Shown piece by piece: positions 4,698 through 47,356 of a DNA stretch of 47,356 bases. The position numbers and the translations under genes were made by a program. Source of the DNA: a virus. The notes below the pieces were generated by a model. That model saw nothing but the letters and a program-made list of their open reading frames with translations, was not told where the DNA came from and did no database searches. Positions within the stretch are counted from its first letter, which is position 1. Each line of letters opens with the position of its first letter. The DNA lies in IMG/VR virus record IMGVR_UViG_3300042397_000918, positions 1 through 47,356 of that record; one strand, given 5' to 3'.

Positions 4698-4995
4698 TCC
4701 TTTGTTCAAACCTCCTCGACATCTTGTAAAAGAATGGCCAGAGGTTTTTGAAGATCTTTATATGAATACCATGCCTGTGGCCTATCTGGATTCCGTGAGA
4801 TTAGATTTCACAGATGGCCGGGTATGGGAAATCGATGTAAAGAATGAACTCACCAAACAGACTGCTGACGGCATCGCTGATGTGTTGATCAGTACTCTTC
4901 AAGAATACAAAGACGAAATTAAAAAAATAGATTTCAAAGTTGATGTAGAAAGACTTAAAAAAGACATCAGAGATTCGTCAAAAAACATTTTTTAA
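4690..4995 (+). CDS. small conserved phage protein, unknown function
   Basis: 101-residue product. The ATG at 4690 overlaps the end of the preceding gene by eight bases; a TTG three bases earlier is less likely. The sequence begins PNPLFKPPRHLVKEWPEVF, has a central beta pair (SVRLDFTDGRVWEIDV) and ends in a charged helix with alternating Lys/Asp (KIDFKVDVERLKKDI). No enzyme motif. It is the last gene of the plus-strand cluster, and its stop codon overlaps the stop of the convergent minus-strand operon by four bases (4992-4995), so there is no spacer for an ordinary terminator. Confidence 0.7.
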   Translation: MPNPLFKPPRHLVKEWPEVFEDLYMNTMPVAYLDSVRLDFTDGRVWEIDVKNELTKQTADGIADVLISTLQEYKDEIKKIDFKVDVERLKKDIRDSSKNIF

Positions 4996-5789: not shown

Positions 5790-5790
5790 T

Positions 5791-13883: not shown

Positions 13884-14710
13884 GCTATTTCCTCTAAGAT
13901 GTTAATTACTTCATCGGTGATTTTATCTTTTTCTACATAATGTACAATGTCATGCTGTTGGTAATTGCCAATTTTTAATTGTGCTTTTTTGTCAAGATAA
14001 AATCCCACGTGGTTACTCCAGGTGTCTGCAGGCCAAGGCCAATTCTGTATCATAGGCTTCATGTGAACAATCCTAGGAAACTCTAATGGATATGCTATTT
14101 GATCTGATATGTCTAGGATTTTTGCTGCTAGAGCAAACGCTTCGTCTGTGCCTACTATCTTGGGTTTATATTCTGACAAAAACACATTGGCAAACTCCAC
14201 AGGATTTTTAATAATGTGTCTGCCCAGGTCAAAAAAGTCTCGAGCCATTTGAGAATCTTTAGCGAAAAATGTCCACATAGAGTATACATCAGGCAGATGA
14301 TTTTTATCAAAGCATTTGCGGTAAGTTCTATCAGTGACTATCTGTGCTCTATATGTATGAACCTTGTTGGCAATATACAGCTGGGAGTTTTCAACATGAT
14401 AATCAATCCAATGACTATAGTCCCGCATAAACAGCATGTCAGCATCCAAACATACAGTATGGTCAAACGGTGTCAGCTGATCCATCCAGCTACGTCCGTC
14501 CCAAAATGTTTCTTGATTCCATTCTATAACATGATCAAACACCCACGGGCTTTTAAGTTTTTGTAATTTCGATTGATCATCTATGACCAATGCTACTTTG
14601 TCGTAGCCTGGCTTTTGAGTGTTCTTGATACTGAGCGCAAGGGCGTAGGCCATACTGAGATAATCAACTGTGTCATGTTCTGCAACTATCAGAAGATATC
14701 CAAAATTCAT
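13871..14710 (-). CDS. GT8-like glycosyltransferase
   Basis: 279-residue nucleotide-diphospho-sugar transferase. It opens with a Rossmann-like strand and helix (NFGYLLIVAEHDTVDYLSMA), has the DXD motif Asp89-Ala-Asp91 (HTVCLDADMLF) as in GT8/glycogenin-like enzymes, and a GTDEAFALAAKI segment that fits the acceptor-side helix of the family. A C-terminal HMKPMIQNWPW segment contains a His often involved in metal binding in GT8 enzymes. The start at 14710 is fixed by GGAG with 6-base spacing and the ATGA overlap with the preceding gene; the longer frame to 14797 would begin with a cysteine run inside the upstream gene and is rejected. Confidence 0.75.
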   Translation of the reverse strand: MNFGYLLIVAEHDTVDYLSMAYALALSIKNTQKPGYDKVALVIDDQSKLQKLKSPWVFDHVIEWNQETFWDGRSWMDQLTPFDHTVCLDADMLFMRDYSHWIDYHVENSQLYIANKVHTYRAQIVTDRTYRKCFDKNHLPDVYSMWTFFAKDSQMARDFFDLGRHIIKNPVEFANVFLSEYKPKIVGTDEAFALAAKILDISDQIAYPLEFPRIVHMKPMIQNWPWPADTWSNHVGFYLDKKAQLKIGNYQQHDIVHYVEKDKITDEVINILEEIAWKL

Positions 14711-15567
14711 ATCATCTCCAATAACTGCTGTTTGTGTCTCACAATACTTTGTTTGTTCATGATATGAATATCTAATCCGCGAACAGCAGCAGCACAATAT
14801 GTATTGTCTAATTTGTAGTCAACTAAAAATTTCAATGTAGGTCCATCAACTTCGTATAGTATGTCTTTGTCTAACGCTGATAATACCGCTGGCAGACGGC
14901 CTAATACAGTTTCTTCAAACCCGTCTAACAGATGTTTGGCAACACTGAAGGCAATGTCGTTTCTAAACTGTCTGTGATCAAATCTAAAAACATCAGCATA
15001 GTACAGATAATTTTGTTTGACATATTCCACTGTGTCAAAAAACAGTTTAGACGCAGAATTTTTAGTAAACATCACTGTGGTGGCCCAATATAGTTTTACT
15101 CCGGTTTCGGAAATGTTGACATCGAGATATCCTAATCTGTGTTGACTGTAAATGTCGTTGATAGATTCTCCTATCATTATGTCTTGATCAATATCCCAAT
15201 AGCTGTTGAGGTTATCGGACAGTATGAAATAATCACTGTCGATCAACAGTGTTCGATCATATGGGGTTAATTCCCAAGCCGAATGTCTGTTGGTATTCGT
15301 GAACGGAACCATCTGTCCATCGATACCATCTCTGAGAAATCGTTGATTTCCGGTCTGTGGTTTTTCAGTTAATATAATCTTGTCAAATACAGTATTGGCC
15401 AAATCAAAGACCAAGCTCTGTTTCATCCAATCAATAGTAGTAGCATCAGTGACCAAACTCACTGGCACATCAAGATGTTTTTTGGCTAAGCCTCCGCTGA
15501 TTATGCTGAGCAAGGCATAATCCACCGTGCGGTTATTATACGCATAGATCAAGATGCCTTTGGTCAT
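14707..15567 (-). CDS. GT8-like glycosyltransferase, divergent paralogue
   Basis: 286-residue protein related to the following gene: a GILIYAYNNRTVDYALLSI start, a DXD-type motif Asp110-Ser-Asp112 (RTLLIDSDYFIL), and a central WATTVMFTKNSASKLFFD segment. It begins and ends with ATGA overlaps, so it is co-translated with its neighbours. Like its paralogue it lacks a signal peptide or membrane anchor and should act in the cytoplasm. Differences from its neighbour around the donor motif (DSD versus DAD) suggest a different sugar donor or acceptor. Confidence 0.7.
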   Translation of the reverse strand: MTKGILIYAYNNRTVDYALLSIISGGLAKKHLDVPVSLVTDATTIDWMKQSLVFDLANTVFDKIILTEKPQTGNQRFLRDGIDGQMVPFTNTNRHSAWELTPYDRTLLIDSDYFILSDNLNSYWDIDQDIMIGESINDIYSQHRLGYLDVNISETGVKLYWATTVMFTKNSASKLFFDTVEYVKQNYLYYADVFRFDHRQFRNDIAFSVAKHLLDGFEETVLGRLPAVLSALDKDILYEVDGPTLKFLVDYKLDNTYCAAAVRGLDIHIMNKQSIVRHKQQLLEMI

Positions 15568-27756: not shown

Positions 27757-28407
27757 TTAGACCTCAGCAAAGCCAGTTAAACTCTGCACACGTATAGTAT
27801 AATCTATCTGCAGTAATCTATTCAAACTTTTTTGCACAGGGTGAAATATCACATGTGTCAACAGCTTTCCGTCCGCTGTGTTTGGTCCTAGGCTTTTTAA
27901 TCCCAGTTCATCAAACACAAACGAGCCGTTCATATCTACACTGTTATCAAAGGCTTCTTGATCCAACGGCTCGCCGTAGTCTAATAAACAGCTGATCAAA
28001 ATATCACTGTAGGTAGCTCCGCTGATATGTCGTATCTGCATTTTATTTCGAATAGGATCTTGATTTTCAATAGCATTTTGATCCACTACTTTTTGATAGG
28101 TTTGATTGTATAATCCAGAATTCACGCCAACTGTGTTAGGTGTAAGGTATGTGATAAGTCCTGTAGGATCTACTGTTGTTCCGCCTGTGCCGAAAATCAT
28201 TTGATATACTGTACCGTACCCTTGATTACTAAGACTGTTAACCATGGCCACGCTCATATTTTCATAGTGAATGGCATTGCGTTTGTCCACAAAAACTTCT
28301 TTGGTTTCGGGATCATGAATTTTAATATGCCCTTCGAAGTGAAATCCACCGGTTTCGTTAGGGCGGGATTGAGAAGTAGTTGCTTGCTGATCTTGATTAT
28401 TTGGCAT
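27757..28407 (-). CDS. conserved virion structural protein
   Basis: 216-residue protein between the giant tail protein and the fibres. It has an N-terminal polar tail (MPNNQDQQATTSQS), then a beta-rich domain with GFHFEGHIKIHDPETKEVF, DKRNAIHYENMSVAMVNSL and GYGTVYQMIFGTGGT, and ends with a strand pattern (LLQIDYTIRVQSLTGF). I recall this family in the structural region of T4-like marine phages. The frame is open to 28467, but I start at 28407: AAGAG lies upstream, and the late-promoter-like box at 28433-28440 would begin transcription after the earlier ATGs. An adaptor between baseplate and fibre is a reasonable guess only. Confidence 0.72.
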   Translation of the reverse strand: MPNNQDQQATTSQSRPNETGGFHFEGHIKIHDPETKEVFVDKRNAIHYENMSVAMVNSLSNQGYGTVYQMIFGTGGTTVDPTGLITYLTPNTVGVNSGLYNQTYQKVVDQNAIENQDPIRNKMQIRHISGATYSDILISCLLDYGEPLDQEAFDNSVDMNGSFVFDELGLKSLGPNTADGKLLTHVIFHPVQKSLNRLLQIDYTIRVQSLTGFAEV

Positions 28408-28432
28408 TTTGATCTCTTTTTGTTCCATCATG

Positions 28433-28440
28433 TATTTATT
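28433..28440 (-). promoter_or_regulatory. putative late promoter overlapping a stop codon (AATAAATA)
   Basis: Minus-strand AATAAATA, one mismatch from the T4 late consensus. The TAA stop of the giant gene (28436-28438) is inside the box. Predicted transcription start is near 28427 with a 20-base leader holding AAGAG before the ATG at 28407. It would drive the downstream structural protein and fibres D, C and B. Confidence 0.5.
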
Positions 28441-31400
28441 CAGGTATAGCTGTGGTCTTTTCCACAATGAATCTAGCTATAGCGGTGTCTGCATCTATTA
28501 GGCTAACACCGTCTGTAGCTGTGGTCTCGCCTCTGCTATGCCATGTTTTACCCTGTCTTCTTAGCACAGTCACTCGTGTACCTGCTGGCAATGCAGCTGT
28601 TAGTCTTATTTGAGCAGTAGCACCGTCTACACTAAATTCTGCTTCTTGTGTCTCGTCTGCTGCCGGACTGGCAGCACCGTTGGCTTCTATGTACACAGCC
28701 TGCGGATCTTTTTTCAATCTTCGACCACCGGCAAACACTTCTATTTGATCGCAAGGTCCGTAAGTAGACGGTACAGTATTTCTATACCATACACCACTTC
28801 TCGATGCTTTTTGAGGCACAAAATCCAACGGGCCTATTAGCAGTGTGCTACCGTCGCTGGTAAAGTCAGTTCTCTGCTGGGTTTCATTATATGGTATAAC
28901 TTCGCTGTATCCTACATCAACCACCGCTGTACCCTGAGCGTGTATTTGTGCTATAGATGTTCCCTGAGCTCCTCTACGCAGTTGACCTAATGTATTACCC
29001 AATTTGGTCATGTACTCAATACGTTCTCCATCTATAAACACAACACCTGGTATATTTCTGCTGGCAATAGGTTGAGACAATTCAGCAGCATTCGTAACTA
29101 ATATGCTGGTATCGAAGTAGTTTAGTGCCTGAGCTAATTTGCATTCAGCTTTTGAGAATCTGTTGTAATGAAACACATTCAACATGTCTTTATGTATTTC
29201 ATATGCCGATGGCAATTTGAAAATATTATTACTGAAATTAACAATTTTAATTTTATCAGTTGGTAAAGAATTTGCTGTGAGGTAAACTACTGCTCTTGGC
29301 AAGCTCACGTAATAATCTTTGTCTTGACGTAGACGATGTCCGTTTTTGTATACCCATACATAACTCATCGCAATCGGTGGGCGTGATAGTTGATATTGAA
29401 GACGTCCGCCACTGTTTTCATCTTGAATAATATTCATAGACGGATATTCACCAAACCAAGTTACTATTATTGGCACATTGTCTGTTTCGTTGACACTGGT
29501 CATTGGATAGCTTGCAGAAATTGCAATAGTATTTCCGTCAATAGAATATTCTGCTCTCAAATCATTAACAATCTTGATGTGATCTCCTATTGACAATTTC
29601 AAAGGATTCAACGTTAATATTTTATTAGGGCCGTCTAGAGTATAATCTACAATAAATGTTCTAAGTTGGTCATTTACCAGAACTTTTAGGTTAGCAGGCA
29701 ATATACTACCGCCAGGTTCAACTGGATCGGTACCAAGTTGAAAGACATTATTAGAACCGTCATAAACAGCATATAAAGTGTCGGGCCCTTTTAATAAGTA
29801 CCCATCAACTTCTACCAATGCAGCAGTCAGTGTCGATCCTCGACTCAATTCACTAAATCCATCGATGTCAAAACTTCTAGTGCTACCTTCATAATAGAAA
29901 GTCTGCGTATTAACTTGCACTAACGATAATCCTGAACTATCTACATCGGCACTGGCTTCTAAACATACTATTTTTACTACATCTCCTGCTTGTGGAATTA
30001 TTCCAAAATCTACCAAAGTTTTTCCTACAGCATCAATTACATTTGTACTGTTACGGTATCCTACATCTACTTGAGTTCCGTTCACACTTACAAATATATT
30101 GCTGGTATTGTCATAGTTGGCATTGGTTAAAAATAAACCAGTAACTCCATCTGCAATATAGCTTTGATAATCTAAAATACCAACGCCGCCGATTCCTACA
30201 CTGAGTATTTCCACTAACTTATCCACTAATGGTGCTGTGATAAAATTCACAGTATTGGTTTGTAGATCAATCGTATAATCAGTGTCTAAGATTCTTGATG
30301 TGTTGTCGACGTATACAAAAACTGATTTGTTTTCTAATACAGTTTGTCCTATAGAAAACTGTGTGGTTGTTCCGTTAGCAATTTTCACATTAGAATGCAG
30401 TGATGCTGCCCCCGATACTGTGTTGTTATATACTTTAATTGACACACTTTCGATAACCTGGCCTGGAACATTTTCTTCAGGTGCTGGCACCACTGTAGGA
30501 TCTATAAACTTGCCACCAGTAATAGCAATTTCTTCTGCAGTGAATCCAGTAGCGGTAACATAGGCTCCACTTATACTTGACAACGATCCGCCGGTGAGTC
30601 TAGTATCTAAAATATTATTATCATTGATAGAAACACTGCCATCGCTTTCTATAGGTCGGAAAATTAATGTATCTTCATTATTCACTAATAGATACTGACC
30701 AATTTGAATTCCATCAGTGATGCCATTGCCTACAAATGTTGGCATTTCTGCAGAAGGATTCACTCCTGTACTTGAATCTAAAATGCTACTGCCGTCTACC
30801 CCATACTGAATATAATTTTCATCATCTACCCGTACAGTGATGTTGGTGTCTTTGCGTTTGATATAAATGTTAATTTTCTGTCCGGCAGCTGGCACATACG
30901 GTAATCTCACTGTGAATATTTCCCAGAATAATTGCCATTCTTGTGAAATAATCGGAATAATAACATTGCCTGCGGTGTCAACACTGTTTTTTAGTGCTTT
31001 GTATAATACGCCGTTAACTTCCACAATTTCATCTTTCAGATATATCGCTGTAGAGTCAACAAAAGATCGTATGCCGTCAACTATAAAATAATAATCTGCA
31101 CTGGTCTCAACTGAGTCCCAGTTGTCAGTAAACCAAGGTAGAGCATCCCATCCGCCAGTGACGTCAAATGTAGTACCCTGTATCTGTACTCCGCCAAAAT
31201 CAATGCCAGTCATTAACTGATTGAGTTCTTTTCCAATCATACCTTCTTTAGGTGCGTATGATTGATTGATCCTGTTCACTGCATCAAACAGCGTGATGTT
31301 TTTACCATAGCTTACTGTGATTGTGTCATTTTTTGTAGGAGCCAAGTTGAATATCAACTTGCCACGCAATAAAGAATAACCATCAGTAGGTTGATAATAC

Positions 31401-34400
31401 AAACTAATAGTGTATTCACTGGCCAACACCACTTGTGTTTTGTTGGTCGCAGCTGATGTACGTGATATAGTAATTTTACTCTTGTCGTTGGTCGGAGCAT
31501 AATTTAACAAGAACACCGCAGAGCTTCCTGTGGCTGTAAATGACTGTGTTTGTGAAAATGTATTGTAAATTCCAGTTTTGGAAATTCTATCAAATTTTAC
31601 CGAGACATCAAATGTTCTAACCTGTGCATCACCTATTATTGCCACAGCTTTAGCCTGCACAGCATTAGTAGGATTCCCTCCCACCAGTGTAACCGTCGGT
31701 GCTGCGGTATACCCAGAACCAGTAGTCAATACTTGTATACTGGAGACTTTACCATTAGAAATAAATGCTTTGGCTGTAGCGCCGGATCCGGTACCGTCAA
31801 TTAGCACTTTAGGAGGAGTACTATATCCCGAACCCTGTTGATATACTTCTATAGCAGTCACTGAATATGAATTATTATCTGCCCACCATTTCCAAGGATA
31901 CTGAGATATTTCTGCAGACGAAGAGTTTACAGGATTTGCACGACCGTCAAATACCGAATACACCGGCGGTAAATCAAAATCTGTTGCGGCAGACGAATAT
32001 GTTTCTGGAGTATCGTAACGACTGATATATTCTCTAACTGTGGTTCTAAAAGGTTTAACTTCATTAATGTATTCTTGATAACTTTGTAAATTATCATTTT
32101 TGTAATTAACTTTCTGTTCAAACGCCCCAATATTATGTGTGGCATTTAAGAAACTGGTTTTGAATATCCAGTCAACATATTGCTGTTCGCTCAGTAGGTG
32201 TCGTATAGAAGCAAAAAATAATTTATTCCATTCTACAGCATAGTCACCAATAAAAATATCTTGCTTGATTGCTGTGAAGATATTTCTCAACTCTTGATCA
32301 TTCTCAATATCATACGTAGTAGTATCAAAGGCCTGTGTGTTATCAAACCCTACTCCAATAGTACCGGTGTCGTATAAGGAAGAACTAAGTTGTATTGTAC
32401 CGTTTTGTCTACTAATTAACGAATATCTATCTAAGAATAGATCAGCAGTGTCTGATACTTTTTCAAACACTGCCCAGCCGCCGGCAGCATACTCTTTGAC
32501 TTTTATGATTTCACCAATTAAAACTTGACTGTCAACAATTTCGTAAATGCTGACAAATTCTTTGATAATTTTAAGATCGGTGTCATATCCGTCTTTATTC
32601 CAATCTGTTTTATTCCAATATTTCGTAGTGTCGAACGCCTGTGATTTACTGCGGAAATAAACTTTTCGTGTGTCGTCCCAAGAATACACACTCCAGAAAT
32701 CGTTCAACGTTGCATCGGCATTTACTAATACAGAAAAATATCTAACCTGAATGTTTATACTGCTGTATTTTTTACCGCGATTAGTTACCACTGCTTGAAT
32801 AACTCGGCCTTGTCCATCTATATGGCACACTGCTGTAGCATTCACACCGTCGCCTGATATAGTTACTGGAGGACCGAGATAGACACCTGGTAGCTCTTGA
32901 CTGAACAGTTCTCTAGGCTTGTATCCGTATCCAGGATCCACAATATCTATAGTGTCTAATTCTCCGTTGATCAAATTAGCTCTTAGAATTGCACGTTTGA
33001 TGTTTGTTGTACCCACTGCTTGCAAATCAATGTCATTGTCTACTGCCACATCATAAAGATTTAACTTGCTGCTAGGCACAGCATCTACACTATTAAGATT
33101 AGTAAAATCTATAGTTTCTGCAAATGTTTCTTTTCGTAAAATATTGTTAATATATTCTATAACAATTTTCAGTGCTAATATTCTGTCAACAAACATAGTC
33201 TGGCGAGGACGGTACTGTATACCATATTTTTGTTTTGCCGGCAATGCTGCATCTGGAATACGATTACCTGCAATGTCTGTTCCGAGAAGACTGTCAATCC
33301 ATTTGTTTTCTAATGGTGCAGAAGGTAAACTGTCTGCTATTCCTTCTGTTAACAATTGGTATTCGTTGTGTACAGGAATTTGTGATTCTAAATTTTTTCT
33401 AATCTGCAGATTTATCAGTGCAGTGTCAGACTGCATTATTGATTTAAAATTATAAGTTAAGAATTTATCTGCCTGCAAAAATGCCACAAACGCAAGACCA
33501 GTTCCGGCAGGGTTAGCAATTAGGTCGGCTACTTCGGCCGCTGATCTTGTGCGATCAGGCATATTTGCCGGGGTCACCGCTTTGCTACGCACCCAATAGT
33601 AATACAGTGTTTCTGAAACTTGCCCGGTAGTAGGGCTGAAGAAAAATTTCACACTGTAAACATCGTTGTTAGGATACAAGGGCTGGCCGCTGATCCCCTG
33701 CGCTAATCCTGCATTAGTGTCTGCCAGCGCAGCCCATTCATTAGGCAACAATACTGTTTCTACCCACTCATACACATCGACGCTGGCGCCTAATACTGTT
33801 TGATTCCAATTTCCCGTTCTGTAAGCAGAGTCTTTTTGTTCTGCGTATTGAAACTTAGCTGTACCGATGTTCCACCATAGTTTTCCTACATTTTTTTCCA
33901 ACCAGTTTATAGTAGTATCTACCACAACTTCTGCTGTGCCTATGGTATAGACTGCTGGATCGTATGGAGTTTTATATTTTATTTCTTGTTCGGCTATGTT
34001 TAATATTTTTCCTCTAGCGGCATCGATGTAATCTACATCTTGTATTTTTACATTCTTAGCATTGTCATAGAGTTCGATTTTCTTTATTTTTCTAAGATCA
34101 ACTAATGGTTGTTGACTTGCCAGCACTGTCCAGCTTGCTCCACTGGTACTTGCTGTGAACAATCTCACTATCCCCTGATAGGTATTTGTTATATTGTTTT
34201 TATGGTAAGGAGATCCTACCAATAATTTTGTACCTACGCAGTCGATACTGTGACCGAATGATTCGTCTACTTGAAGATCGCTGTCAAGTTTTTCTGTTAA
34301 GAAATAGGTCTGATCTTTTTTATCAAATACGTACACACCGCCTGTGAATCCTTGTTCTACATAGAACCGTGTTCTGCTGTTGTCAAATGTTGTGCCTTCT

Positions 34401-37400
34401 AATAGATCAAAATTTACAGGGAATGGAGTTCTGGCATTTCTTGCCCCTATGGCTATCTTCGAACCGTCTGGGCTTACTGATACAGCAAATCCAAAATATT
34501 CGTTGGTGTAGATTTCATAACTCTGTAAACGCTGTTTAACACGGAATTCAGTCACTGGCTGATCTAATTCTAAAACATATACCGCACCTTGATCCTGATA
34601 GTTTACATCTGCCCTAGGACTGGCGACTGCCAGCATTGTGCCATTTGCATCTATGTCCATGCTGAATCCAAATTGATCACCTGTACTGATTACTAATCCG
34701 GAATCGATGTCAGTGAACGATGCCAGTGTTGCTGCGTTGATCATTTGAGTAAATTCATAAGAATCATACGCAGTCTTCTTATAAACAAATATCTTACCGC
34801 TGGAAGTTGTGGTACTGTCGCCCACTTGTTGCCAATTTGCACTGTCAGACGGATCTTCGTTATAGCTGCGATAAGTGCTGTCTGGTCCTAAAAGTCCGTC
34901 GCCTAATTGATAATATTGATATGCATCTCCCGGAGACCCTCGATGGCGTACTACTTCACCTTCGACGTATTCTACATCGCCGCGCCACACTCCTCGATAA
35001 TTTGCAAAATACTGACCATCACTGTCAGGCGCACCAATAACTAATATGCTACCGTCTTTGTTCATGGCCATCGAGAATCCGAACAGATCGCCTTGCTTAA
35101 CTAATTCTGCTTTTTGTGCATTAGTTAAAAGACCTGTAGTTGTAAACTCCATTGTAGAACCGTCGTCTTCCACAGAAATATTAGTCGGCAAAGAGCAGTG
35201 CGTAGATATATTATTGACCTTTAACCAGTTCTGTGACTCTAGGGTTATTGTGCTGCCGTCCGAGGTCGACCCGTCAAGGCTCTGCCATAGATTGCCGCGC
35301 ACTGTTTCTAAAATAGGATCTTGTGCCGCTTGCCATACTATATCGCCTTGTTTGTACGAATCAAATAAGTTGTATATTCCTTTGTACAAAGGATTTTCCA
35401 TGTGTATCCACTCTGTACCTGTATATTTGATAAGGTACACTCGACCTGTGTTATTATACGATCCTATAGCAGATACTGCTAGATAATATTCGTTACCGTT
35501 AACGCCTATTGTAATTTCTGATCCAAACTTTTCGTTGTCTGTGGGTCTTGGCGAAACAAATGCAGTGACACTGACATATCTTCCACTGATAAATTCATAA
35601 ACCGCTACCATACCTTGCTGATAATATCCAGTGTTACGTCCTGATGTTTCAGCAGGTATAACTGTGGTGTGTGCAATCCAGTCGTCAGAGTTAATAGCTA
35701 TCTGAGTGCTGCCATCTCCTAACCCTGCAAAATTTCCGTTGGCATTCAACGCTCTGTAAAGTCTGCCGCCATACAGTACAATATCACCTTGTTCATAGGC
35801 TAATTCAGTCTGCCATTCGCCCATGTATCTATTAATAACACCACTGGCGATCGGTGCTCCCACTACAAGGAATTTACCGTCTGGGCTGACAGCCATCTTT
35901 TCGCCGAACGAGCCTATTGCGATGTCAAAGAATCCGATAGGAGGTGCAATGATCTGTTTTAAGATTAACCCTGTAGGAGTTTCTACATAAACATTCACAA
36001 ATCCCGAGCCCGGTATACTGCTGATTATGTGTTTATTAATATTGTCATAAATGACTTTAGACCCTGCAAGCAGCGGAGACGAGGTACCAAAATCTTCTAT
36101 GGTTTTTGCAGTGTACAATTTATTTTTCTGCACTACTTCCCACAAATCATCGCCATTGTTATCTACGAATACCGTTGACTTATTTTTCAATAATGCTGCT
36201 GGATGCTGATCAACCGCTGCGTAATCTGCAAATCTTGCTAGGGTTAACAACTGAATATTAACCGTGGTGCTGGAATCTAACTCAGGATCATCAACGTCTG
36301 CGCTGACCACAACTGTTATTGTAGTGTTGGTTACTGCACTGACTTTAAAAAATCCGCTAAGGTTAACAATCTCACGGAATCCGATATACTCATCGACTGT
36401 CACTGAATGTGGTCTGTTCAATGTCAAGGTGACCGTAGTGTCATCTATACGTACTGCTTCACTAACAAATAGCAGTGGCGACTCATTGACTCGCAGTACT
36501 TGCCAGCTGTCCTGATTGAAAGTTACCCAAATATGATCGTTTTCATCGACTGTGGTTATATCAAGAGATGTTAACTGATCCAATGAACCGACCACATGTT
36601 GATATTGTCCTGAGCTAACATAACCGGCAGTGAATTCTGGTTCCAGATCCAACGTGGTTGGTAAAATATCTACAGTGTACGGGATCGGTGAAATTGTAAA
36701 ATCATTAGCAGTAAATCTATAATACTGATCTAAGACGTTGGCTGTGTCATTGGCTGTTACCAGATGGAGTTGTGGGTTTAGTTTAAATTTATTCTTTTCA
36801 AGTTGTATTTCAATTTCCGAGAATTGATCAGTGCCGCCAAGTTGACCAAGACGAAATGCCCATTCTTCATTAAGTACGACACTGTCGGACCCCGATCTAC
36901 TTAGTTTATTAAAAATTTTAGTTACACTGTTTGCGGTACCTTTTTCTCTAATAAATCCCTGATATAGCTGAAACTGGCTTACCGGATCTTCCGCAAGATT
37001 TTGTAGATAGTCTCGTTGTTGATAACCTATGGCATGTCTAGCCAATTCTCGTTGACTTTGATCTAGTCCCTGAGACGAAGTTTCAAAATAGTCACTGAAT
37101 TGTTTTATCTTATAATCAAAATTTGACACCAGCTGTTTGACTGGTTTTGAATCTAGTTTTGACCAGTTGGCATCGTTAAATATTTCTGCACCTAATTGAT
37201 TTACAAGGCTGGTCCAGTTGTAAGATTTGTAAGAAACAATATCTCCCAGTTTGTAATCTCGGAACGGTTGCCAAATCTGTATATCAACATTATCGAATAA
37301 AAATCCTGGGCTGGTATAGTCCCCGTCCCAATCCACTGTGCGGAAGGCCTGCATTTTAATACGGCCTTGACGATATCCAGTAGGCTTGTCATAGATTATG

Positions 37401-40400
37401 TCATTGAACACTGTGCGATCATCAAATACAGTAACGTGTTCTTTTATTACATAATGCAGTCTTGCATAATAAATGCCGTCAGTGGTATTTGTGGTTTCTA
37501 TATCTAGGGATTGAAAACTTCTATTAATGTTAAGGAATCTTGGAGCCAGCGGAGTTCCGTCTCCCTTGAGAATCTGATAGTCATAAAAACCGTCAAGCAG
37601 ATTGTCTGGTGTTCCTACAGGTATAGAAATTTTTAATTTTTGTGCAGATGGGCTTAGGGCAATAATAGCACCTAGGTCCCAATTGTGCTTAGACCAAAAC
37701 ATGAATTCTTTAGCAGCACTGAGCCAATCCTGGCTGGTAGCATTTTGAGGATCGTAACTATCAAATACAATACCCTGTGTTTTAAGATAGCTTTCATATC
37801 CTAACAATAGATCTACCACTTCCTGTATACTGGTCAGGAGTGTTCCATAACTGATTTGTTTTACAGTAATGGTGTTGAATATTCGTCTACGTTGCGCTTC
37901 GATTGCACCTATCTTAGGCACATTTCCTAATTTTTGCCATAGACTACGATCAAAGTCTCCGCTGCTGCGGTGAGTTTTTAATGCTCGATAAAAATTACTC
38001 TGATATCTTATCAAAGTACCGTTGTTATAATTCTTATCTTCTATCCAATCGGTAAATGCTTCACTGACTCCACCCACGGAGATTACGGGATCTTTACTGC
38101 TGGCCTGAGCCGGATGATAGTTAAAGTAAGGATGAATATCGTCATACCCTGCTACAATCCAGCCGCCTGATGTTTTTTCTAATCTCACACCACTGTAACT
38201 AACTGTAGATACTGGACTACTAATGTTAAACACAATATCGTAATTTTCTGGAGGGATAAAGATACTGGAAGTAGTTGCCGAAGGATTTTTCGAATCTAAC
38301 AAATATTTTTGCTGTTGTTGATCCACAAACCCGCTCATTCTAAAACTCAAGGCCACATCTAATTTTTCTATTTTAACCTGCAGGCTATCCTTAGATAATC
38401 CTTGAGATGTAGTATAACTGGTTAGATATTTTACCAATCCAACTGCTGTAGAATCTGTCACGAAGGGTGCAATGTCTGCAATAGTCACAAACAACCCTGT
38501 GGTAGAATTTATGTACTGGTCTAATTTGTTTTTTATGATTCTTGATCTATCAAAATTGTCAGGGATATATTCGAATGGTTTCATCAAACACATAGCGGTA
38601 ACAATTGCATATGGCCATTCAGAACTAGATCTCCATGCGTACTCTGCTGGACTTACATCCCCTAATACAAACGGGCCGCGATTGTTGATTAATGAAAAAT
38701 CCTGTGCAAGATTAGAATCCAGCGGACTCAGTAACTTTCCGTCACCGTCTACAGGGATGTGTGAAACAAGGCCGGGCCGCTTGTATCTGTCATATCTACC
38801 AGCTCGAACGCCTTGTCGAATTATTCCAGCTTCAAGGTCTTCCCATAAAACTAAATTGTTACTGGTATACGGTGCTGACCCGTATTCTGCCTGCCACCAA
38901 GAAGGTCGCTGACTAAACCCTAACATCTCCCAAGGGCAGCGATGCGGTCTATCAGTGTCATAGAAATGCTGATACACTCCTCTCCACCAGCCAGGGATAT
39001 TTTTAGTTTTAGTGGGGTCTGACATGTTGGAATACGTATAGGTAAATGAGTTTTCGCTGTCGAAATACTCATTTGTTGTATAATTGATATTGGTATTCTG
39101 AATCCATTTTAAAAAATCTTGTACCACAATCATATCTAACTGATTCTTAGAATATTCGCCTACTCCGTAATAACCAGCTAATATTTGATCTATATCAAAT
39201 ACTGCAGAATTATATTCTTGTTTGATATTATTGTAGATACGTAATTCTAGTTCCAACAATAGATCATCTCTAAAATCACCAAAAGATGCAGTGATACTGC
39301 CGTCGTGTCCTTGTATAACATACCTCGGTTCTTGGTATGTGTCATCAAGAAATTTCATAGGGGTATATTTTTTATACAGCCCCATAGACGTAGGTGTAGG
39401 TGGAATAAAATTAGTAGAAGTGCTGAGATATTCTCTAATTTCAATTGCATCGCCTTCTGCTAACGGCGCTGTAATTGTTATGAAACTGAATGCAGAGTTA
39501 AACACGTAATCTTGAGTGTTTATAAGTTGTAACCCGTTTTTGTAAACATACACAGCTCGGCTGCTGAGAGTTGTCAAATCAAATCTTTCTGACAATGTAA
39601 ATGTAGTAATACCAGTATCTTCTACTACTGTTGTCAAGGCAGTGTAGGCTCCTGCACCGATCATGTCTGAATCTGCAAAAGCGTCTTGCGGTGTTTTTAC
39701 TGAGGTTAAGCTGTTGATTATGTCATCAACAAAATCAATTGTTTGATCATTATAATCAATTTCTGTAGCTCTTTGCAGGAAATTGTTTTTGAAATCTGTA
39801 TATTCTTTTTTTGCATGCTGGATTGCTTTGACGATATTGTGAGTTTTATCACACAATGACATCACAGCCAGCGGTGTATTACCGCTGTGTTTTAAAAATC
39901 GTTTGGCAAACAGTCTATAATCTTCAAGATCTCGTAGGTTACTTACTCCGGGTAATTTTCCTGTAAATTCTTTGTCCCATTCTATTGCGCTGGCTATGTG
40001 ATCAACCGCCTCACCTAAAGTAAACGATTTTATAGGTGCGTTAAACGGATTTTTTTCTAAGCCAACAGGTATTTCATAGTAACCTTGATCTGGGTCAACA
40101 TCTGTGATGAGTTTGATTACTACAACATCGTTAACTGCAAATGTTGTACCAAATACAAACGTTCCTAATTTTCTTGTCCACGAACCTGTATATTTTGTGC
40201 CATTCAAGTAGAAATTTATTTCAGGATCGGTGGTCAAACTTTCCCATCGTATCGTAGTAAATGTTAGAGTATCAGTAGCTGTGCTTACCAGTTGGTTATC
40301 TATTATAGGTTGTAGATATTTAGAATTCAATTGCTGCCAACCATTGGCATAGTTAGATCCTAATTTATAAAACCCGGTGGATATCTTTTTGTCTACTGGT

Positions 40401-42418
40401 AGATTATTAATCGTGTAACGAAATGTGTCAACATCCCAATCATAATCAAACTCAATATCGCCTATGTTATCTATGTTGAGATAACTGATCTGAATTCCTA
40501 ATTCTGTATCAATTCTTGCATTTCCTGGCTTATAACTTAATATGCTCGAACCTATAAATTCCGAGTCTGGATAAGTTGTATGATCGCCAAAACTAATTTC
40601 GTTTCCGTCAAAGACATCAAACCGTGGTGCTTGGTTCACCTCAGTTTTAGGTTGGCTAGATACCCAATCAGTTCCGTTAAAATGGAACATCAGTCCTTTG
40701 TTTACGTTGCCTCGTCTTACTGTGACACACTGGCCAAGAATTGATTCTGTGTCATCACTTTCTCTAAGATGTATTTGTTTAGAATTATTATGGGTGATAA
40801 ACTCTACTGTGTATATTTTATTATTGACTAGATTATCTTGGTCGGCTACAACTAATATCCTTGCACCGTCGAATAGAAATTCACCGTCTATGTTATATCC
40901 TCTAGATCCCTCAACGATAGAAAAAATATCAGTGGTCGCTGTATCTATGTAATCCACACTTTGTTTAGCAATTACTCCATGATTAAACAGTTGCAGGCCG
41001 GCACGAAATTCTATGATCGGTCGTTTAGCTCTTGCTGTTTCGTTAGCTGGAAAATCTTGACCTCTTAACTGATATGCCTTTTCTAAAATAGATCTGTGGA
41101 ACCAACGATTGTATCTGCTCCACGGATTATTATCTGCACTATCTCTTGCGATGGTTATATAATCTTTTGACGCGGCATATTCTGTGGCATCATCAAACGG
41201 CTGTGTATCAAATCCGTCATTGTCAAATAATACTTCAGGGACTGCTGAACTAAGTATCGGTGCTGCTAGATCGCTGAATCTAGTCAATGTAATAGCTGTG
41301 CCTACTCCTTCTACTAACCATGTATCAGTCGCATACGCTTCAGGAGTAACATTGCCTGTAAATTCTACAATCATTCCGTTACTGAATTCAACTCCGTTAC
41401 CGCTGGTGTATGTAGTTTTTCCAATGATATCAATGCCTACATTGACAAAAGTGTTTTCTTCTATGTCTGCAATAATAAATCTGCCGAACGCATCTGGTGT
41501 AATTTTACCTTGGTAATACAAAGTGTCTGGTGCATCGTACGGTACATCAAAAGTCAATATGCCGTTTTCAATTCCGTTATTGATTACTCCTTTGTTGTAA
41601 TCTAACGAATTACCTGCACTGGCTGGTTCGATGTATTGCCAATCTTCACTGTCTATAGTGATTGAACTTGCATCTAGACTGGTAACATCTCGTATAGCCC
41701 GCCATAATTTTGAATCATATACTACCACACTGCCTTGTGGGTAACTTCTAGTGGGCTGAAATAATAAACTGCCTGTATCAAAATTAGTGCGAAGCACTAA
41801 CCCTTCTCCCGGAGCATTTACACGAAATTTGTAAGTTTGTCCTCGATATAGGGTCAGCGTGGGATTATTAGTATATGCATCAGGAGTGAATACAAACGAA
41901 TTTTTAGTAGTTCCTAACACAACTTTATATGTGCTGTTGACTGTTGCACTTTGACCCGCGATGCTAATACTGCGTGGGCCTAGCGGTTCCCAGTAGTATT
42001 CTCTATAGTTAATAAACTTGTCCCAGTCTATTGGGGGGTCCCAAGTGTAGTGGGTTTGTCCAGTAACTTTGTCATCACGTTCGATAGTGTTACCGAAAAA
42101 TTTCAATTGATTTTTAACATCAACATAGTCATAGAAATTTTCTATCTTATCATGATTTTTAAATATTACACCGGGCTCCAGTTGATAACTGCTGCGCAAT
42201 GTAGCGTCAGTGTCAACATAAACATCTTTGCCGTTGAAAGTTTTATCGTATCTGCGACCGATATATCCGACAACTTTGTCTAATACTCCGGGCTGAATTA
42301 ACGGATCAACTACTGCAGATAAAAATTTATCATTAGCGGGAGTTTGAAAGATTACCGGAAGCAGTTCTACTGATCTACGGATAGGTAATTGACTGTTAGG
42401 AAAAAATTTATTGGCCAT
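28436..42418 (-). CDS. giant virion (baseplate/tail) protein, 4660 residues
   Basis: A single intact frame of about 14 kb. The N-terminus (NKFFPNSQLPIRRSVELLPVI, then YIGRRYDKTFNG and THYTWDPPIDWDKFINYREY) resembles large structural proteins I recall beside gp6 in marine T4-like phages; it occupies the slot of T4 gene 7, whose product is only about 1030 residues. Inside are seven chitin-binding-like modules, FG-GAP-like repeats at about residues 2150-2745, two Gly-Tyr-rich repeat segments (about 3155-3230 and 3515-3600), and repeated beta-sandwich units with V-x-V-N-G and DYT motifs (about 925-1005, 3630-3710, 4010-4290). The C-terminus has GGRRLKKDPQ and a TPIARF-like end. It starts one base after the gp6 stop without a Shine-Dalgarno, so coupling is likely. 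Confidence 0.85.
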   Translation of the reverse strand: MANKFFPNSQLPIRRSVELLPVIFQTPANDKFLSAVVDPLIQPGVLDKVVGYIGRRYDKTFNGKDVYVDTDATLRSSYQLEPGVIFKNHDKIENFYDYVDVKNQLKFFGNTIERDDKVTGQTHYTWDPPIDWDKFINYREYYWEPLGPRSISIAGQSATVNSTYKVVLGTTKNSFVFTPDAYTNNPTLTLYRGQTYKFRVNAPGEGLVLRTNFDTGSLLFQPTRSYPQGSVVVYDSKLWRAIRDVTSLDASSITIDSEDWQYIEPASAGNSLDYNKGVINNGIENGILTFDVPYDAPDTLYYQGKITPDAFGRFIIADIEENTFVNVGIDIIGKTTYTSGNGVEFSNGMIVEFTGNVTPEAYATDTWLVEGVGTAITLTRFSDLAAPILSSAVPEVLFDNDGFDTQPFDDATEYAASKDYITIARDSADNNPWSRYNRWFHRSILEKAYQLRGQDFPANETARAKRPIIEFRAGLQLFNHGVIAKQSVDYIDTATTDIFSIVEGSRGYNIDGEFLFDGARILVVADQDNLVNNKIYTVEFITHNNSKQIHLRESDDTESILGQCVTVRRGNVNKGLMFHFNGTDWVSSQPKTEVNQAPRFDVFDGNEISFGDHTTYPDSEFIGSSILSYKPGNARIDTELGIQISYLNIDNIGDIEFDYDWDVDTFRYTINNLPVDKKISTGFYKLGSNYANGWQQLNSKYLQPIIDNQLVSTATDTLTFTTIRWESLTTDPEINFYLNGTKYTGSWTRKLGTFVFGTTFAVNDVVVIKLITDVDPDQGYYEIPVGLEKNPFNAPIKSFTLGEAVDHIASAIEWDKEFTGKLPGVSNLRDLEDYRLFAKRFLKHSGNTPLAVMSLCDKTHNIVKAIQHAKKEYTDFKNNFLQRATEIDYNDQTIDFVDDIINSLTSVKTPQDAFADSDMIGAGAYTALTTVVEDTGITTFTLSERFDLTTLSSRAVYVYKNGLQLINTQDYVFNSAFSFITITAPLAEGDAIEIREYLSTSTNFIPPTPTSMGLYKKYTPMKFLDDTYQEPRYVIQGHDGSITASFGDFRDDLLLELELRIYNNIKQEYNSAVFDIDQILAGYYGVGEYSKNQLDMIVVQDFLKWIQNTNINYTTNEYFDSENSFTYTYSNMSDPTKTKNIPGWWRGVYQHFYDTDRPHRCPWEMLGFSQRPSWWQAEYGSAPYTSNNLVLWEDLEAGIIRQGVRAGRYDRYKRPGLVSHIPVDGDGKLLSPLDSNLAQDFSLINNRGPFVLGDVSPAEYAWRSSSEWPYAIVTAMCLMKPFEYIPDNFDRSRIIKNKLDQYINSTTGLFVTIADIAPFVTDSTAVGLVKYLTSYTTSQGLSKDSLQVKIEKLDVALSFRMSGFVDQQQQKYLLDSKNPSATTSSIFIPPENYDIVFNISSPVSTVSYSGVRLEKTSGGWIVAGYDDIHPYFNYHPAQASSKDPVISVGGVSEAFTDWIEDKNYNNGTLIRYQSNFYRALKTHRSSGDFDRSLWQKLGNVPKIGAIEAQRRRIFNTITVKQISYGTLLTSIQEVVDLLLGYESYLKTQGIVFDSYDPQNATSQDWLSAAKEFMFWSKHNWDLGAIIALSPSAQKLKISIPVGTPDNLLDGFYDYQILKGDGTPLAPRFLNINRSFQSLDIETTNTTDGIYYARLHYVIKEHVTVFDDRTVFNDIIYDKPTGYRQGRIKMQAFRTVDWDGDYTSPGFLFDNVDIQIWQPFRDYKLGDIVSYKSYNWTSLVNQLGAEIFNDANWSKLDSKPVKQLVSNFDYKIKQFSDYFETSSQGLDQSQRELARHAIGYQQRDYLQNLAEDPVSQFQLYQGFIREKGTANSVTKIFNKLSRSGSDSVVLNEEWAFRLGQLGGTDQFSEIEIQLEKNKFKLNPQLHLVTANDTANVLDQYYRFTANDFTISPIPYTVDILPTTLDLEPEFTAGYVSSGQYQHVVGSLDQLTSLDITTVDENDHIWVTFNQDSWQVLRVNESPLLFVSEAVRIDDTTVTLTLNRPHSVTVDEYIGFREIVNLSGFFKVSAVTNTTITVVVSADVDDPELDSSTTVNIQLLTLARFADYAAVDQHPAALLKNKSTVFVDNNGDDLWEVVQKNKLYTAKTIEDFGTSSPLLAGSKVIYDNINKHIISSIPGSGFVNVYVETPTGLILKQIIAPPIGFFDIAIGSFGEKMAVSPDGKFLVVGAPIASGVINRYMGEWQTELAYEQGDIVLYGGRLYRALNANGNFAGLGDGSTQIAINSDDWIAHTTVIPAETSGRNTGYYQQGMVAVYEFISGRYVSVTAFVSPRPTDNEKFGSEITIGVNGNEYYLAVSAIGSYNNTGRVYLIKYTGTEWIHMENPLYKGIYNLFDSYKQGDIVWQAAQDPILETVRGNLWQSLDGSTSDGSTITLESQNWLKVNNISTHCSLPTNISVEDDGSTMEFTTTGLLTNAQKAELVKQGDLFGFSMAMNKDGSILVIGAPDSDGQYFANYRGVWRGDVEYVEGEVVRHRGSPGDAYQYYQLGDGLLGPDSTYRSYNEDPSDSANWQQVGDSTTTSSGKIFVYKKTAYDSYEFTQMINAATLASFTDIDSGLVISTGDQFGFSMDIDANGTMLAVASPRADVNYQDQGAVYVLELDQPVTEFRVKQRLQSYEIYTNEYFGFAVSVSPDGSKIAIGARNARTPFPVNFDLLEGTTFDNSRTRFYVEQGFTGGVYVFDKKDQTYFLTEKLDSDLQVDESFGHSIDCVGTKLLVGSPYHKNNITNTYQGIVRLFTASTSGASWTVLASQQPLVDLRKIKKIELYDNAKNVKIQDVDYIDAARGKILNIAEQEIKYKTPYDPAVYTIGTAEVVVDTTINWLEKNVGKLWWNIGTAKFQYAEQKDSAYRTGNWNQTVLGASVDVYEWVETVLLPNEWAALADTNAGLAQGISGQPLYPNNDVYSVKFFFSPTTGQVSETLYYYWVRSKAVTPANMPDRTRSAAEVADLIANPAGTGLAFVAFLQADKFLTYNFKSIMQSDTALINLQIRKNLESQIPVHNEYQLLTEGIADSLPSAPLENKWIDSLLGTDIAGNRIPDAALPAKQKYGIQYRPRQTMFVDRILALKIVIEYINNILRKETFAETIDFTNLNSVDAVPSSKLNLYDVAVDNDIDLQAVGTTNIKRAILRANLINGELDTIDIVDPGYGYKPRELFSQELPGVYLGPPVTISGDGVNATAVCHIDGQGRVIQAVVTNRGKKYSSINIQVRYFSVLVNADATLNDFWSVYSWDDTRKVYFRSKSQAFDTTKYWNKTDWNKDGYDTDLKIIKEFVSIYEIVDSQVLIGEIIKVKEYAAGGWAVFEKVSDTADLFLDRYSLISRQNGTIQLSSSLYDTGTIGVGFDNTQAFDTTTYDIENDQELRNIFTAIKQDIFIGDYAVEWNKLFFASIRHLLSEQQYVDWIFKTSFLNATHNIGAFEQKVNYKNDNLQSYQEYINEVKPFRTTVREYISRYDTPETYSSAATDFDLPPVYSVFDGRANPVNSSSAEISQYPWKWWADNNSYSVTAIEVYQQGSGYSTPPKVLIDGTGSGATAKAFISNGKVSSIQVLTTGSGYTAAPTVTLVGGNPTNAVQAKAVAIIGDAQVRTFDVSVKFDRISKTGIYNTFSQTQSFTATGSSAVFLLNYAPTNDKSKITISRTSAATNKTQVVLASEYTISLYYQPTDGYSLLRGKLIFNLAPTKNDTITVSYGKNITLFDAVNRINQSYAPKEGMIGKELNQLMTGIDFGGVQIQGTTFDVTGGWDALPWFTDNWDSVETSADYYFIVDGIRSFVDSTAIYLKDEIVEVNGVLYKALKNSVDTAGNVIIPIISQEWQLFWEIFTVRLPYVPAAGQKINIYIKRKDTNITVRVDDENYIQYGVDGSSILDSSTGVNPSAEMPTFVGNGITDGIQIGQYLLVNNEDTLIFRPIESDGSVSINDNNILDTRLTGGSLSSISGAYVTATGFTAEEIAITGGKFIDPTVVPAPEENVPGQVIESVSIKVYNNTVSGAASLHSNVKIANGTTTQFSIGQTVLENKSVFVYVDNTSRILDTDYTIDLQTNTVNFITAPLVDKLVEILSVGIGGVGILDYQSYIADGVTGLFLTNANYDNTSNIFVSVNGTQVDVGYRNSTNVIDAVGKTLVDFGIIPQAGDVVKIVCLEASADVDSSGLSLVQVNTQTFYYEGSTRSFDIDGFSELSRGSTLTAALVEVDGYLLKGPDTLYAVYDGSNNVFQLGTDPVEPGGSILPANLKVLVNDQLRTFIVDYTLDGPNKILTLNPLKLSIGDHIKIVNDLRAEYSIDGNTIAISASYPMTSVNETDNVPIIVTWFGEYPSMNIIQDENSGGRLQYQLSRPPIAMSYVWVYKNGHRLRQDKDYYVSLPRAVVYLTANSLPTDKIKIVNFSNNIFKLPSAYEIHKDMLNVFHYNRFSKAECKLAQALNYFDTSILVTNAAELSQPIASRNIPGVVFIDGERIEYMTKLGNTLGQLRRGAQGTSIAQIHAQGTAVVDVGYSEVIPYNETQQRTDFTSDGSTLLIGPLDFVPQKASRSGVWYRNTVPSTYGPCDQIEVFAGGRRLKKDPQAVYIEANGAASPAADETQEAEFSVDGATAQIRLTAALPAGTRVTVLRRQGKTWHSRGETTATDGVSLIDADTAIARFIVEKTTAIPE
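30918..31057 (-). other. chitin-binding-like module 7 in the giant protein
   Basis: Encodes IYLKDEIVEVNGVLYKALKN followed by a Trp at the module end (SQEWQLFWEIF). The order aromatic - Gly/Lys-Asp/Glu-x-Val - Asn-Gly - Tyr-Lys-Ala - Trp matches the short CBM5/12 type. This copy is far from the other six, near residue 3800. Confidence 0.45.
31630..31865 (-). repeat. Gly-Tyr repeat segment (GSGYxxxPxV) in the giant protein
   Basis: Two adjacent protein repeats: QQGSGYSTPPKVLIDGTGSG and TTGSGYTAAPTVTLVGGNP, separated by TAKAFISNGKVSSIQVL. Each has G-x-G-Y, three residues, Pro-x-Val, and a Gly-rich turn. The unit is common in phage tail proteins and is probably a beta-solenoid or beta-roll. Confidence 0.6.
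32735..32955 (-). repeat. second Gly-Tyr repeat segment in the giant protein
   Basis: Diverged copy of the segment at 31630: DPGYGYKPRELF, PPVTISGDGVNATAVCHI, then GRVIQAVVTNRGKKYSSI. It keeps the G-x-G-Y start, the V-x-I-x-G-x-G turn and the G-R/K-V-x-x-I-x-V strand order, with an insertion in the first loop. Confidence 0.5.
34818..35003 (-). other. chitin-binding-like module 6 in the giant protein
   Basis: Encodes WRGDVEYVEGEVVRHRG, QYYQLGDGLL and a closing NWQQVGD; a longer version of the module, inserted between the third and fourth FG-GAP-like repeats. Confidence 0.45.
35212..35375 (-). other. chitin-binding-like module 5 in the giant protein
   Basis: Encodes LFDSYKQGDIVWQAAQ, GNLWQSLDGS and QNWLKVNN, matching Y-x-x-G-D-x-V, an aromatic-x-S/A-L strand and a final Trp. 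Inserted between the second and third FG-GAP-like repeats. Confidence 0.5.
35664..35822 (-). other. chitin-binding-like module 4 in the giant protein
   Basis: Encodes GEWQTELAYEQGDIVLYGG, RLYRALNANG and SDDWIAH. The best match to CBM5/12 (W-x(5-6)-Y-x-x-G-D-x-V-x-Y-x-G-x-x-Y-x-A-x...W). Inserted between the first and second FG-GAP-like repeats. Confidence 0.6.
37140..37285 (-). other. chitin-binding-like module 3 in the giant protein
   Basis: Encodes IWQPFRDYKLGDIVSYKSYN followed by WTSLVNQLGAE and NDANWSKL; good match to the Trp/Tyr/GD-x-V-x-Y/.../Trp pattern. Near residue 1715. Confidence 0.55.
37913..38052 (-). other. chitin-binding-like module 2 in the giant protein
   Basis: Encodes DWIEDKNYNNGTLIRYQSNF, YRALKTHRSSGDF and SLWQKLG; typical order of aromatic, Gly, strand, Tyr-Arg-Ala and closing Trp. 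Near residue 1460. Confidence 0.55.
41632..41768 (-). other. chitin-binding-like module 1 in the giant protein
   Basis: Encodes FQPTRSYPQGSVVVYDSKLW, RAIRDVTSLD and SEDWQYIEP, close to residue 225. Same module pattern as the six others, with Ser in place of the usual Asp after Gly. Confidence 0.5.
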
Positions 42419-45838: not shown

Positions 45839-46276
45839 TTAGTTAATTACACTATTGTTTTTGTCAAAGTTCATGGTCATACGTTCTGTAATATTAAACG
45901 GAATATACACTAAGTCTGCCTGTATACGCATGCCCTGGTCTGTGCTGTCTATGTTAATTTCAGTGACTGCAAATCTAGGATCGTAGTTTATGATAGCTTC
46001 TACATCCTTGGCTATAATTTCTTTTACATCGGGTGTAAATGGCTCAAACAACATGTCCCAGATCACTGTGCCAAATTCTGGGTTTTCCAACTTTTCACCT
46101 TTGCGGATATAAAAATGATTGATCAAATCCTGCTTGACAAGGTTAATGTCGTAGAGTTTAAAATTCTTATTAGCTTCTTTAGAGCTAAATCCTTTGTAGG
46201 TGAATTGCCCTTGATTCTGAGTCACTGTAGCAGAACGCTGTGCTGCTGTTTGTTGATTGTATAGTCTTGTGGCCAT
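45839..46276 (-). CDS. baseplate wedge protein gp25
   Basis: 145-residue GPW/gp25-family protein, the small wedge component that links gp6 to the hub and the sheath and helps start sheath polymerisation. The family motif is clear: HFYIRKGEKLENPEFGTVIW, then DMLFEPF, followed by VEAIINYDPRFAV. Length is close to T4 gp25 (132). An N-terminal extension (RLYNQQTAAQRSATVTQNQ) is typical of marine T4-like versions. It starts two bases after the gp5 stop, with TAGGA about ten bases upstream. Confidence 0.93.
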   Translation of the reverse strand: MATRLYNQQTAAQRSATVTQNQGQFTYKGFSSKEANKNFKLYDINLVKQDLINHFYIRKGEKLENPEFGTVIWDMLFEPFTPDVKEIIAKDVEAIINYDPRFAVTEINIDSTDQGMRIQADLVYIPFNITERMTMNFDKNNSVIN

Positions 46277-46278
46277 AA

Positions 46279-47356
46279 TTAAGTATTCCTATCCGTTTTA
46301 TCCGGTGTCAATAAGTCCGGTGCTCTATGCTCATGCAATGCCCAAGGTTCATGCATAGGTATGCGCTTCATGAAGCTTTTCACAATGCCGGCTTGGTACC
46401 GCTTGTCCCAACCGGCTGCTGTGCTGGTAGCTGGATTGTCTCTGAGATCATACGGCTTCACAAAATCAGCGGCCGCAGCAGTTTCTGCATTATTCGGACC
46501 ATTGAAATTGATCTTAGTACCGTTGAGTTTAACTTCAGCACCACTGCCAAGATTTATGTCTGAAGTAGAGCTGATCTTAGTTTCTGCTCCGGACGCAATG
46601 TCTAAATCGTTGTTAGTAGATATCTTGGTCTTGGCTCCTACTAATATGTCAAGATTAGCACCCACTGTGAGTTTGGCATCTGCATTAACTAGAAACTCCA
46701 TGTCAGTGGCTATTTCCACATGCCACTTACCCGATTCGGTTCTCATGTTGATATTTCTGCCTGCTTCTAAATTTATATCTCGAGCAGCACGTATGTTAAG
46801 ATCCTGTTGAGTATGCACACTGATGCTGTCTTCAGCAAATATATCTATTTTGCCGTTACTGGTTAATTCAATCCATGCTGTGCCTCGAGCATTCGCTATG
46901 TAGATCAAGTCTTCTGAATTGTGCATCAGGATCTGGTGACCAGTTCTAGTACGAACTCTAAAATATTCACTGGCTGGAATCGTCGGAGATCCTGTGTCGC
47001 CTTTTCGTTGATTAGCAGGATCTAATAAATCGATATATTTTACCGGTCCTTCAGCAGCAGATTTTTCTCTGTGGAATCTATCATTGCCGTCATCCATAAC
47101 CAACTGTGTGCCACCTAGTCTACTCACTGGCACAGTGGCTACACTGTCTGCCTTGCCTATCTGTTGTTTTTTTGCACTGGCTCTGCGATCAAGAGGACCG
47201 GGTGTACTGATACCAAATACCATGCTAGGAGCTTCTCGCCTTGGCGATGAAGTTGTGAATCCTCTAACATCATCCTCTAACAATCCTTGTTCAAGGAATC
47301 GATCTGCTATGGGGTGTACTACTCTAGGATATTTTTCTGGATCAATTTCTTGTGTT
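46279..47356 (-). CDS. gp5-like baseplate hub/spike protein, 5'-truncated
   Basis: The frame is open to the window edge (residues DPEKYPRVVHPIADRFLEQG precede the TTG at 47283), so the N-terminal part, including any OB-fold, lies outside. The visible part has a linker (TGSPTIPASEYFRVRTRTG), then a series of V/I-rich short strands: IYIANARG, WIELTSNGKIDIFAEDSISV, DLNIRAARDINLEAGRNINM, LDILVGAKTKIS, DINLGSGAEVKLNGTKI. These are the triple-stranded beta-helix repeats of gp5/VgrG-like spikes. It ends with MHEPWALHEHRAPD, a motif common at gp5 C-termini in marine T4-like phages. No lysozyme domain is seen in this part. It forms the puncturing spike of the tail. Confidence 0.88.
   Translation of the reverse strand, partial: TQEIDPEKYPRVVHPIADRFLEQGLLEDDVRGFTTSSPRREAPSMVFGISTPGPLDRRASAKKQQIGKADSVATVPVSRLGGTQLVMDDGNDRFHREKSAAEGPVKYIDLLDPANQRKGDTGSPTIPASEYFRVRTRTGHQILMHNSEDLIYIANARGTAWIELTSNGKIDIFAEDSISVHTQQDLNIRAARDINLEAGRNINMRTESGKWHVEIATDMEFLVNADAKLTVGANLDILVGAKTKISTNNDLDIASGAETKISSTSDINLGSGAEVKLNGTKINFNGPNNAETAAAADFVKPYDLRDNPATSTAAGWDKRYQAGIVKSFMKRIPMHEPWALHEHRAPDLLTPDKTDRNT

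Follow-up and report, generated by a model that had tools for sequence, protein, structure and literature searches.

A giant protein of 4,660 residues, encoded directly downstream of gp6, probably forms the wedge backbone in the baseplate of a jumbo myophage of the RaK2 group, as the functional counterpart of T4 gp7; we put the probability of this reading at roughly 0.7. Its attachment to the baseplate is well supported, its identity with T4 gp7 is likely but unproven, and a role as an adhesin is only a possibility. The gene was found in an IMG/VR virus record of 47,356 bp (the window, to which all coordinates refer unless another locus is named). It joins a known, uncharacterised family of giant virion proteins that follow gene 6 in jumbo phages of the RaK2 type, and is a module-rich addition to the giants already deposited in this slot.

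A constrained giant gene in the baseplate operon

The giant frame opens with ATG, has no internal stop and occupies 13,983 of the 47,356 bases (29.5%), whereas the remaining five frames across the same interval hold 221–447 stops (Table 1). An earlier note, made from the sequence alone, had described one uninterrupted 14-kb frame covering about 30% of the window, and both statements hold. Copies identical over residues 1–4660 occur in further IMG/VR contigs (L092 and L098), and many independent contigs carry identical or similar versions at full length, so chance or an assembly error is ruled out. Compared with the five nearest non-redundant relatives, dN/dS was 0.03–0.12 in each tenth of the protein that allowed an estimate; this is a real, constrained gene under strong purifying selection. 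Stop-to-stop giant frames in the fetched loci had a median of 4,596 codons and a maximum of 6,194 (n = 180, counting only frames with both bounding stops inside a locus, some loci overlapping). A 77%-identical orthologue is carried on a contig of 281,658 bp (L126), and the window is therefore probably a fragment of a jumbo phage. Megablast against phages gave no match, and the sole phmmer match of the giant in the PDB was integrin alpha-E (E 0.75).

The giant is preceded on its strand by gp6, gp25 and a gp5-like gene and followed by a 236-aa protein and four fibre-like genes. The spacing from the end of gp6 to the start of the giant is 1 nt, and gp6 precedes the giant in 81/81 IMG/VR loci showing an upstream ORF, with gaps clustering at −1, 1 and 2 nt, which bears out the placement in the gp7 slot given by the earlier note. 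The order gp53 ... gp5–gp25–gp6–giant recurs in named jumbo phages. Few genes of the cluster are as conserved as that of the 236-aa protein. Farther downstream, a block at 4992..15567 (minus strand) encodes a nucleotide-sugar epimerase, a radical-SAM protein and several unassigned genes, possibly for glycan or cofactor metabolism.

Table 1. Features of the giant protein and its gene neighbourhood in the window (residue numbers refer to the giant).
Feature	Position	Strand	Basis or remark
gp5-like hub protein, cut by window end	46279..47355	-	profile match
gp25-like baseplate wedge protein	45839..46276	-	profile match
gp6-like baseplate wedge protein, 1129 aa	42420..45809	-	PHROG gp6 families, E 5e-283 and 3e-21
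Giant virion protein, 4660 aa, gp7 slot, PHROG 10938 orthologue	28436..42418	-	open frame and orthologues
Scaffold block 1, residues 1-160	41939..42418	-	25-34% to Atu, Cassandra, SCTP-2, Munch, Phosso and other orthologues
CBM5/12-type module, residues 220-262	41633..41761	-	
Scaffold block 2, residues about 330-1890	36749..41431	-	alignment; invariant PWEM-GF and KG motifs
gp10/T7-fibre-like beta module, residues 936-1000	39419..39613	-	weak gp10 similarity
CBM5/12-type module, residues 1457-1497	37928..38050	-	chitin-binding-domain fold in 1130-1960 model
Candidate gp7-core helix 1, residues about 1528-1550 (QEVVDLLLGYESYL)	37769..37837	-	hhalign, core columns 18-42
CBM5/12-type module, residues 1716-1755	37154..37273	-	inserted in core; named orthologues without it there
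Candidate gp7-core KGT helix, residues about 1819-1843	36890..36964	-	hhalign, core columns 92-114 (FY-KGT-S helix)
CBM5/12-type module, residues 2201-2248	35675..35818	-	
CBM5/12-type module, residues 2352-2400	35219..35365	-	
FG-GAP repeat (integrin-type propeller) region, residues about 2442-2730	34229..35095	-	Pfam; ends approximate
Scaffold block 3, residues about 2751-3490	31949..34168	-	20-32% in nearly all named orthologues
Promiscuous beta repeat, residues 3144-3230	32729..32989	-	PHROG 438 match
CBM5/12-type module, residues 3789-3829	30932..31054	-	
gp10/T7-fibre-like beta module, residues 4016-4077	30188..30373	-	Pfam PF03906, sub-threshold
gp10/T7-fibre-like beta module, residues 4221-4284	29567..29758	-	
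gp10/T7-fibre-like beta module, residues 4337-4396	29231..29410	-	region 4322-4407 vs gp10, 29.5% probability
236-aa protein, same operon as giant	27757..28467	-	PHROG 11259 (unknown function); downstream in 83/90 giants
Fibre-like genes, 705, 604, 918 and 600 aa	18838..27754	-	common N-terminal region of about 190 aa
918-aa fibre	21034..23790	-	
Radical-SAM protein	9956..11350	-	
Nucleotide-sugar epimerase	8931..9956	-	
Further gene of the 4992..15567 block	8158..8946	-	weak endonuclease V/2OG-oxygenase family matches

A family of giant virion proteins

The giant matches PHROG 10938 ('virion structural protein') in four stretches (E 0, 1,028 bits), and blastp aligned nine named orthologues over the scaffold: Atu_ph07 AUZ94962 (4,449 aa), Phosso gp294 (4,555 aa), the Cassandra/PA5oct group (3,857 aa), SCTP-2 (3,807 aa), Vibrio 2.275 (3,771 aa), Munch gp262 (3,342 aa), CBB_236 (3,340 aa), RaK2 ORF070 (3,326 aa) and 121Q gp582 (3,323 aa). 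With tblastn, orthologues in named jumbo phages were each located directly after gp6 or the gene in its place, so that scaffold, slot and giant size (3,323–4,555 aa) are common to the family and the window protein. Hundreds of IMG/VR stretches encode relatives, which reach about 5–6 kaa; a search of viral contigs seeded with the Cassandra protein found none. The size that the earlier note singled out is thus the rule in this slot in the RaK2 group, and cyanophages reach 6,395 aa there.

That note had also called the product a virion protein, and two orthologues agree. CBB_236 was detected in CBB virions by mass spectrometry (21 peptides, 7.7% coverage; PMC5259590). Purified phAPEC6 virions likewise yielded gp245 (381.88 kDa, 17 peptides), whose neighbour in the numbering is the baseplate wedge protein gp244 (PMC7247149); to judge from its mass and position, gp245 is apparently a further orthologue.

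A putative scaffold with added modules

On alignment, the giant reads as a conserved scaffold with lineage-specific additions between and after its blocks (Table 1). The additions fit what the earlier note had described as sugar-binding-like modules, a propeller and multiple beta-sandwich repeats. Pfam assigned CBM_5_12 (PF02839) past its cut-off in six copies (E 3.2e-16), and the predicted folds of these modules match chitin-binding domains at 1.2–1.3 Å over about 46 residues. FG-GAP_2 (E 6.5e-13) and FG-GAP were also assigned, which supports the propeller at the sequence level. The four beta modules are of one type with weak likeness to T4 gp10 and the N-domain of the T7 fibre, the latter seen in one copy.

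Named orthologues are plainer. The window giant has six CBM5/12 modules against 0–2 (none detected in RaK2, CBB, 121Q and Munch, one or two in the others) and four gp10/T7-like beta modules against 0–2; Pfam detected no counterpart of its FG-GAP region in RaK2 or Atu_ph07, nor any CBM_5_12 in the RaK2 orthologue. IMG/VR relatives carry two to seven CBM modules per protein. The giant is not the only carrier of such modules, for in Vibrio phage 2.275.O the gene in the gp6 slot (L009 11617–15480) is annotated with a CBM5/12 module too.

A probable gp7 counterpart

In contractile systems the wedge contains a (gp6)2–(gp7)1 heterotrimer or the equivalent (TssF)2–(TssG)1 (PMC6300606), an arrangement that A-1(L) also supports, and T4 gp7 is present in one copy per wedge (PMC3004832). 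A gp7-core profile found gp7 in 6/6 T4-like and cyanophage controls but had no match in 12 RaK2-group genomes or contigs. With gp6 present and no other gp7 recognisable, the missing wedge partner is best sought in the giant. T4 gp7 (PHROG 964, 1,032 aa), the presumed partner of gp6, has the same gene position between gp6 and later wedge and fibre genes, yet is 4.5 times smaller and has no significant sequence or fold similarity that we could find to the window giant.

Giants deposited as gp7 are known from cyanophages (PHROG 2885), where proteins of 4.2–6.4 kaa fill the same slot. These include a 6,395-aa gp7 in S-RIM8 A.HR5 (L355 17946–37133) and a 4,225-aa 'baseplate wedge initiator' in ACG-2014f. 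Like the window giant, they directly follow gp6 and contain the promiscuous beta repeat; unlike it, they retain an N-terminal gp7 core recognisable at a significant level. Their core can be split by insertions, and in S-RIM8 its halves lie about 625 aa apart.

Direct profile comparison of the giant with T4 gp7 gave no significant match, and whole-segment hhalign against gp6–gp12 returned only the weak gp10 similarity of the beta modules. The gp7-core family was then built from T4, Vibrio, Desulfovibrio, Sinorhizobium, Stenotrophomonas, Variovorax and cyanophage members and run along the giant in ~129 overlapping windows of 140 residues. The two highest-scoring independent regions, residues about 1528–1550 (score 21.3, P 0.008) and the KGT helix at about 1820–1843 (score 22.3, P 0.005), are collinear with the gp7 core, each match alone being non-significant (hhalign probability 5–7%), the windows overlapping and the two-helix pattern having been noticed post hoc. 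The next region scored 17.0, and the ranking recurred with a more diverse giant alignment; composite profiles joining both helices scored no higher than the single helices. K1826 and G1827 of the KG motif are invariant in 58 homologues. AlphaFold (AF2) places a helix at residues 1531–1548 (pLDDT >90) and helices of low to moderate pLDDT in the KGT region. Taken together, the two helices are no more than suggestive of a gp7 core.

The earlier note's tail/baseplate-like N-terminus found no support. Against the T4 gp7 and gp8 families, hhalign of residues 1–340 and 320–1900 was negative. AF2 monomer models of residues 1–1200 (pLDDT 79) and 1130–1960 (pLDDT 78) had no Foldseek match in the PDB at E ≤ 0.001, and none to solved gp7, TssG or gpI, with the KGT region modelled at low confidence. 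On these models, residues 1–1960 appear to be without a detected solved relative, and no solved wedge protein was matched. The top fold match of the N-terminal model was CBA120 TSP4 residues 1–250 (E 1.9e-3). The 1–1200 model also gave weak matches to cupredoxin-like sandwiches; these cupredoxin/plastocyanin-like matches probably come from beta-rich residues about 160–320 (41459..41941).

Alternative readings

The earlier note had favoured a baseplate-attached adhesin over a simple wedge component. Baseplate attachment stands, whereas precedence of adhesion over a wedge role was not borne out. That the giant is an added, non-wedge baseplate protein whose main work is reversible binding of cell-surface glycans through its CBM and propeller modules is unlikely, for all its six CBM5/12 modules with folds that match real chitin-binding domains, its FG-GAP repeats and beta modules, and a C-terminal third that evolves faster than the core (67–88% against 81–91% identity among relatives). 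The RaK2, CBB, 121Q and Munch orthologues keep scaffold and slot with no detected CBM, so sugar binding is not the common role of the family, and the constraint along the chain extends to the modules. Tail-fibre genes lie directly downstream, moreover, and the hypervariable part sits in one of them: the distal part of the 918-aa fibre, which close relatives have either replaced or deleted, is the sole clearly replaced segment in the cluster and a candidate receptor-binding region. The other fibres are 78–100% identical in the relatives examined. An apparent divergence of fibres beside an unchanging giant was rejected as an artefact of averaging matches to paralogous fibres, those of L098 being 100% identical; the identities quoted above for the giant itself are untouched by this artefact. 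Contact of the giant's modules with surface glycans is nevertheless plausible, and an enlarged wedge protein with peripheral modules fits better than either a pure adhesin or a simple wedge.

Two further readings seem to us improbable. The giant could be some other tail structure that merely occupies the gp7 slot, such as a whisker or sheath decoration or the hub periphery; CBB and phAPEC6 virions do have unusual tail whiskers (PMC5259590, PMC7247149), and the giant models contain no detected wedge fold. The gene nevertheless sits in a tight operon with gp25–gp6, no alternative gp7 was found, and RaK2, which has the giant, is described with long baseplate fibres rather than whiskers (PMC3622015). 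Slighter still are the chances of a gp7–gp8 fusion that forms the wedge as one chain. PHROG 438, which includes T4 gp8, matches residues 3144–3230, and a separate gp8 was recognised neither in the window nor in 12 RaK2-group genomes or contigs while present in 4/4 controls. The match, however, covers PHROG 438 positions 188–262, outside the best T4 gp8 match (3–86), and the repeat recurs in cyanophage gp7, gp8 and other proteins; hhalign of residues 2740–3520 against gp8 was negative, and gp8 is not universal in contractile tails, being a T4 extra relative to P2 and Mu (PMC3004832). We rejected the fusion, since the PHROG 438 match is a promiscuous repeat and profile comparison of the giant with gp8 found no similarity.

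Implications for jumbo-phage baseplates

With the giant as wedge backbone, each of the six wedges would most likely consist of the giant and two copies of gp6. Its enlarged outer parts would carry the lineage-specific CBM5/12, FG-GAP propeller and gp10/T7-like beta domains and might dock the fibre proteins encoded just downstream, whose common N-terminal region may be a docking domain. More tentatively, one polypeptide may have taken over the whole outer wedge in the RaK2 group: its gp7 core would have been split by a beta-rich insertion of roughly 270 residues and have drifted beyond recognition, separate gp7 and gp8 would have been lost, and some lineages would have gone on to add CBM and propeller modules to this load-bearing wedge, bringing the baseplate itself into contact with glycans of the host or of biofilms.

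What looked like a single oddity belongs to a widespread family in the gp7 slot of jumbo phages, with hundreds of IMG/VR matches, and interest centres on whether the giant of the RaK2 group is gp7. If it is not, the protein is ordinary and already annotated as a 'structural protein'. If it is, it would show how many glycan-binding and beta modules a core baseplate subunit can take on and still assemble, and the two candidate helices are the specific elements to seek in a jumbo-phage baseplate map.
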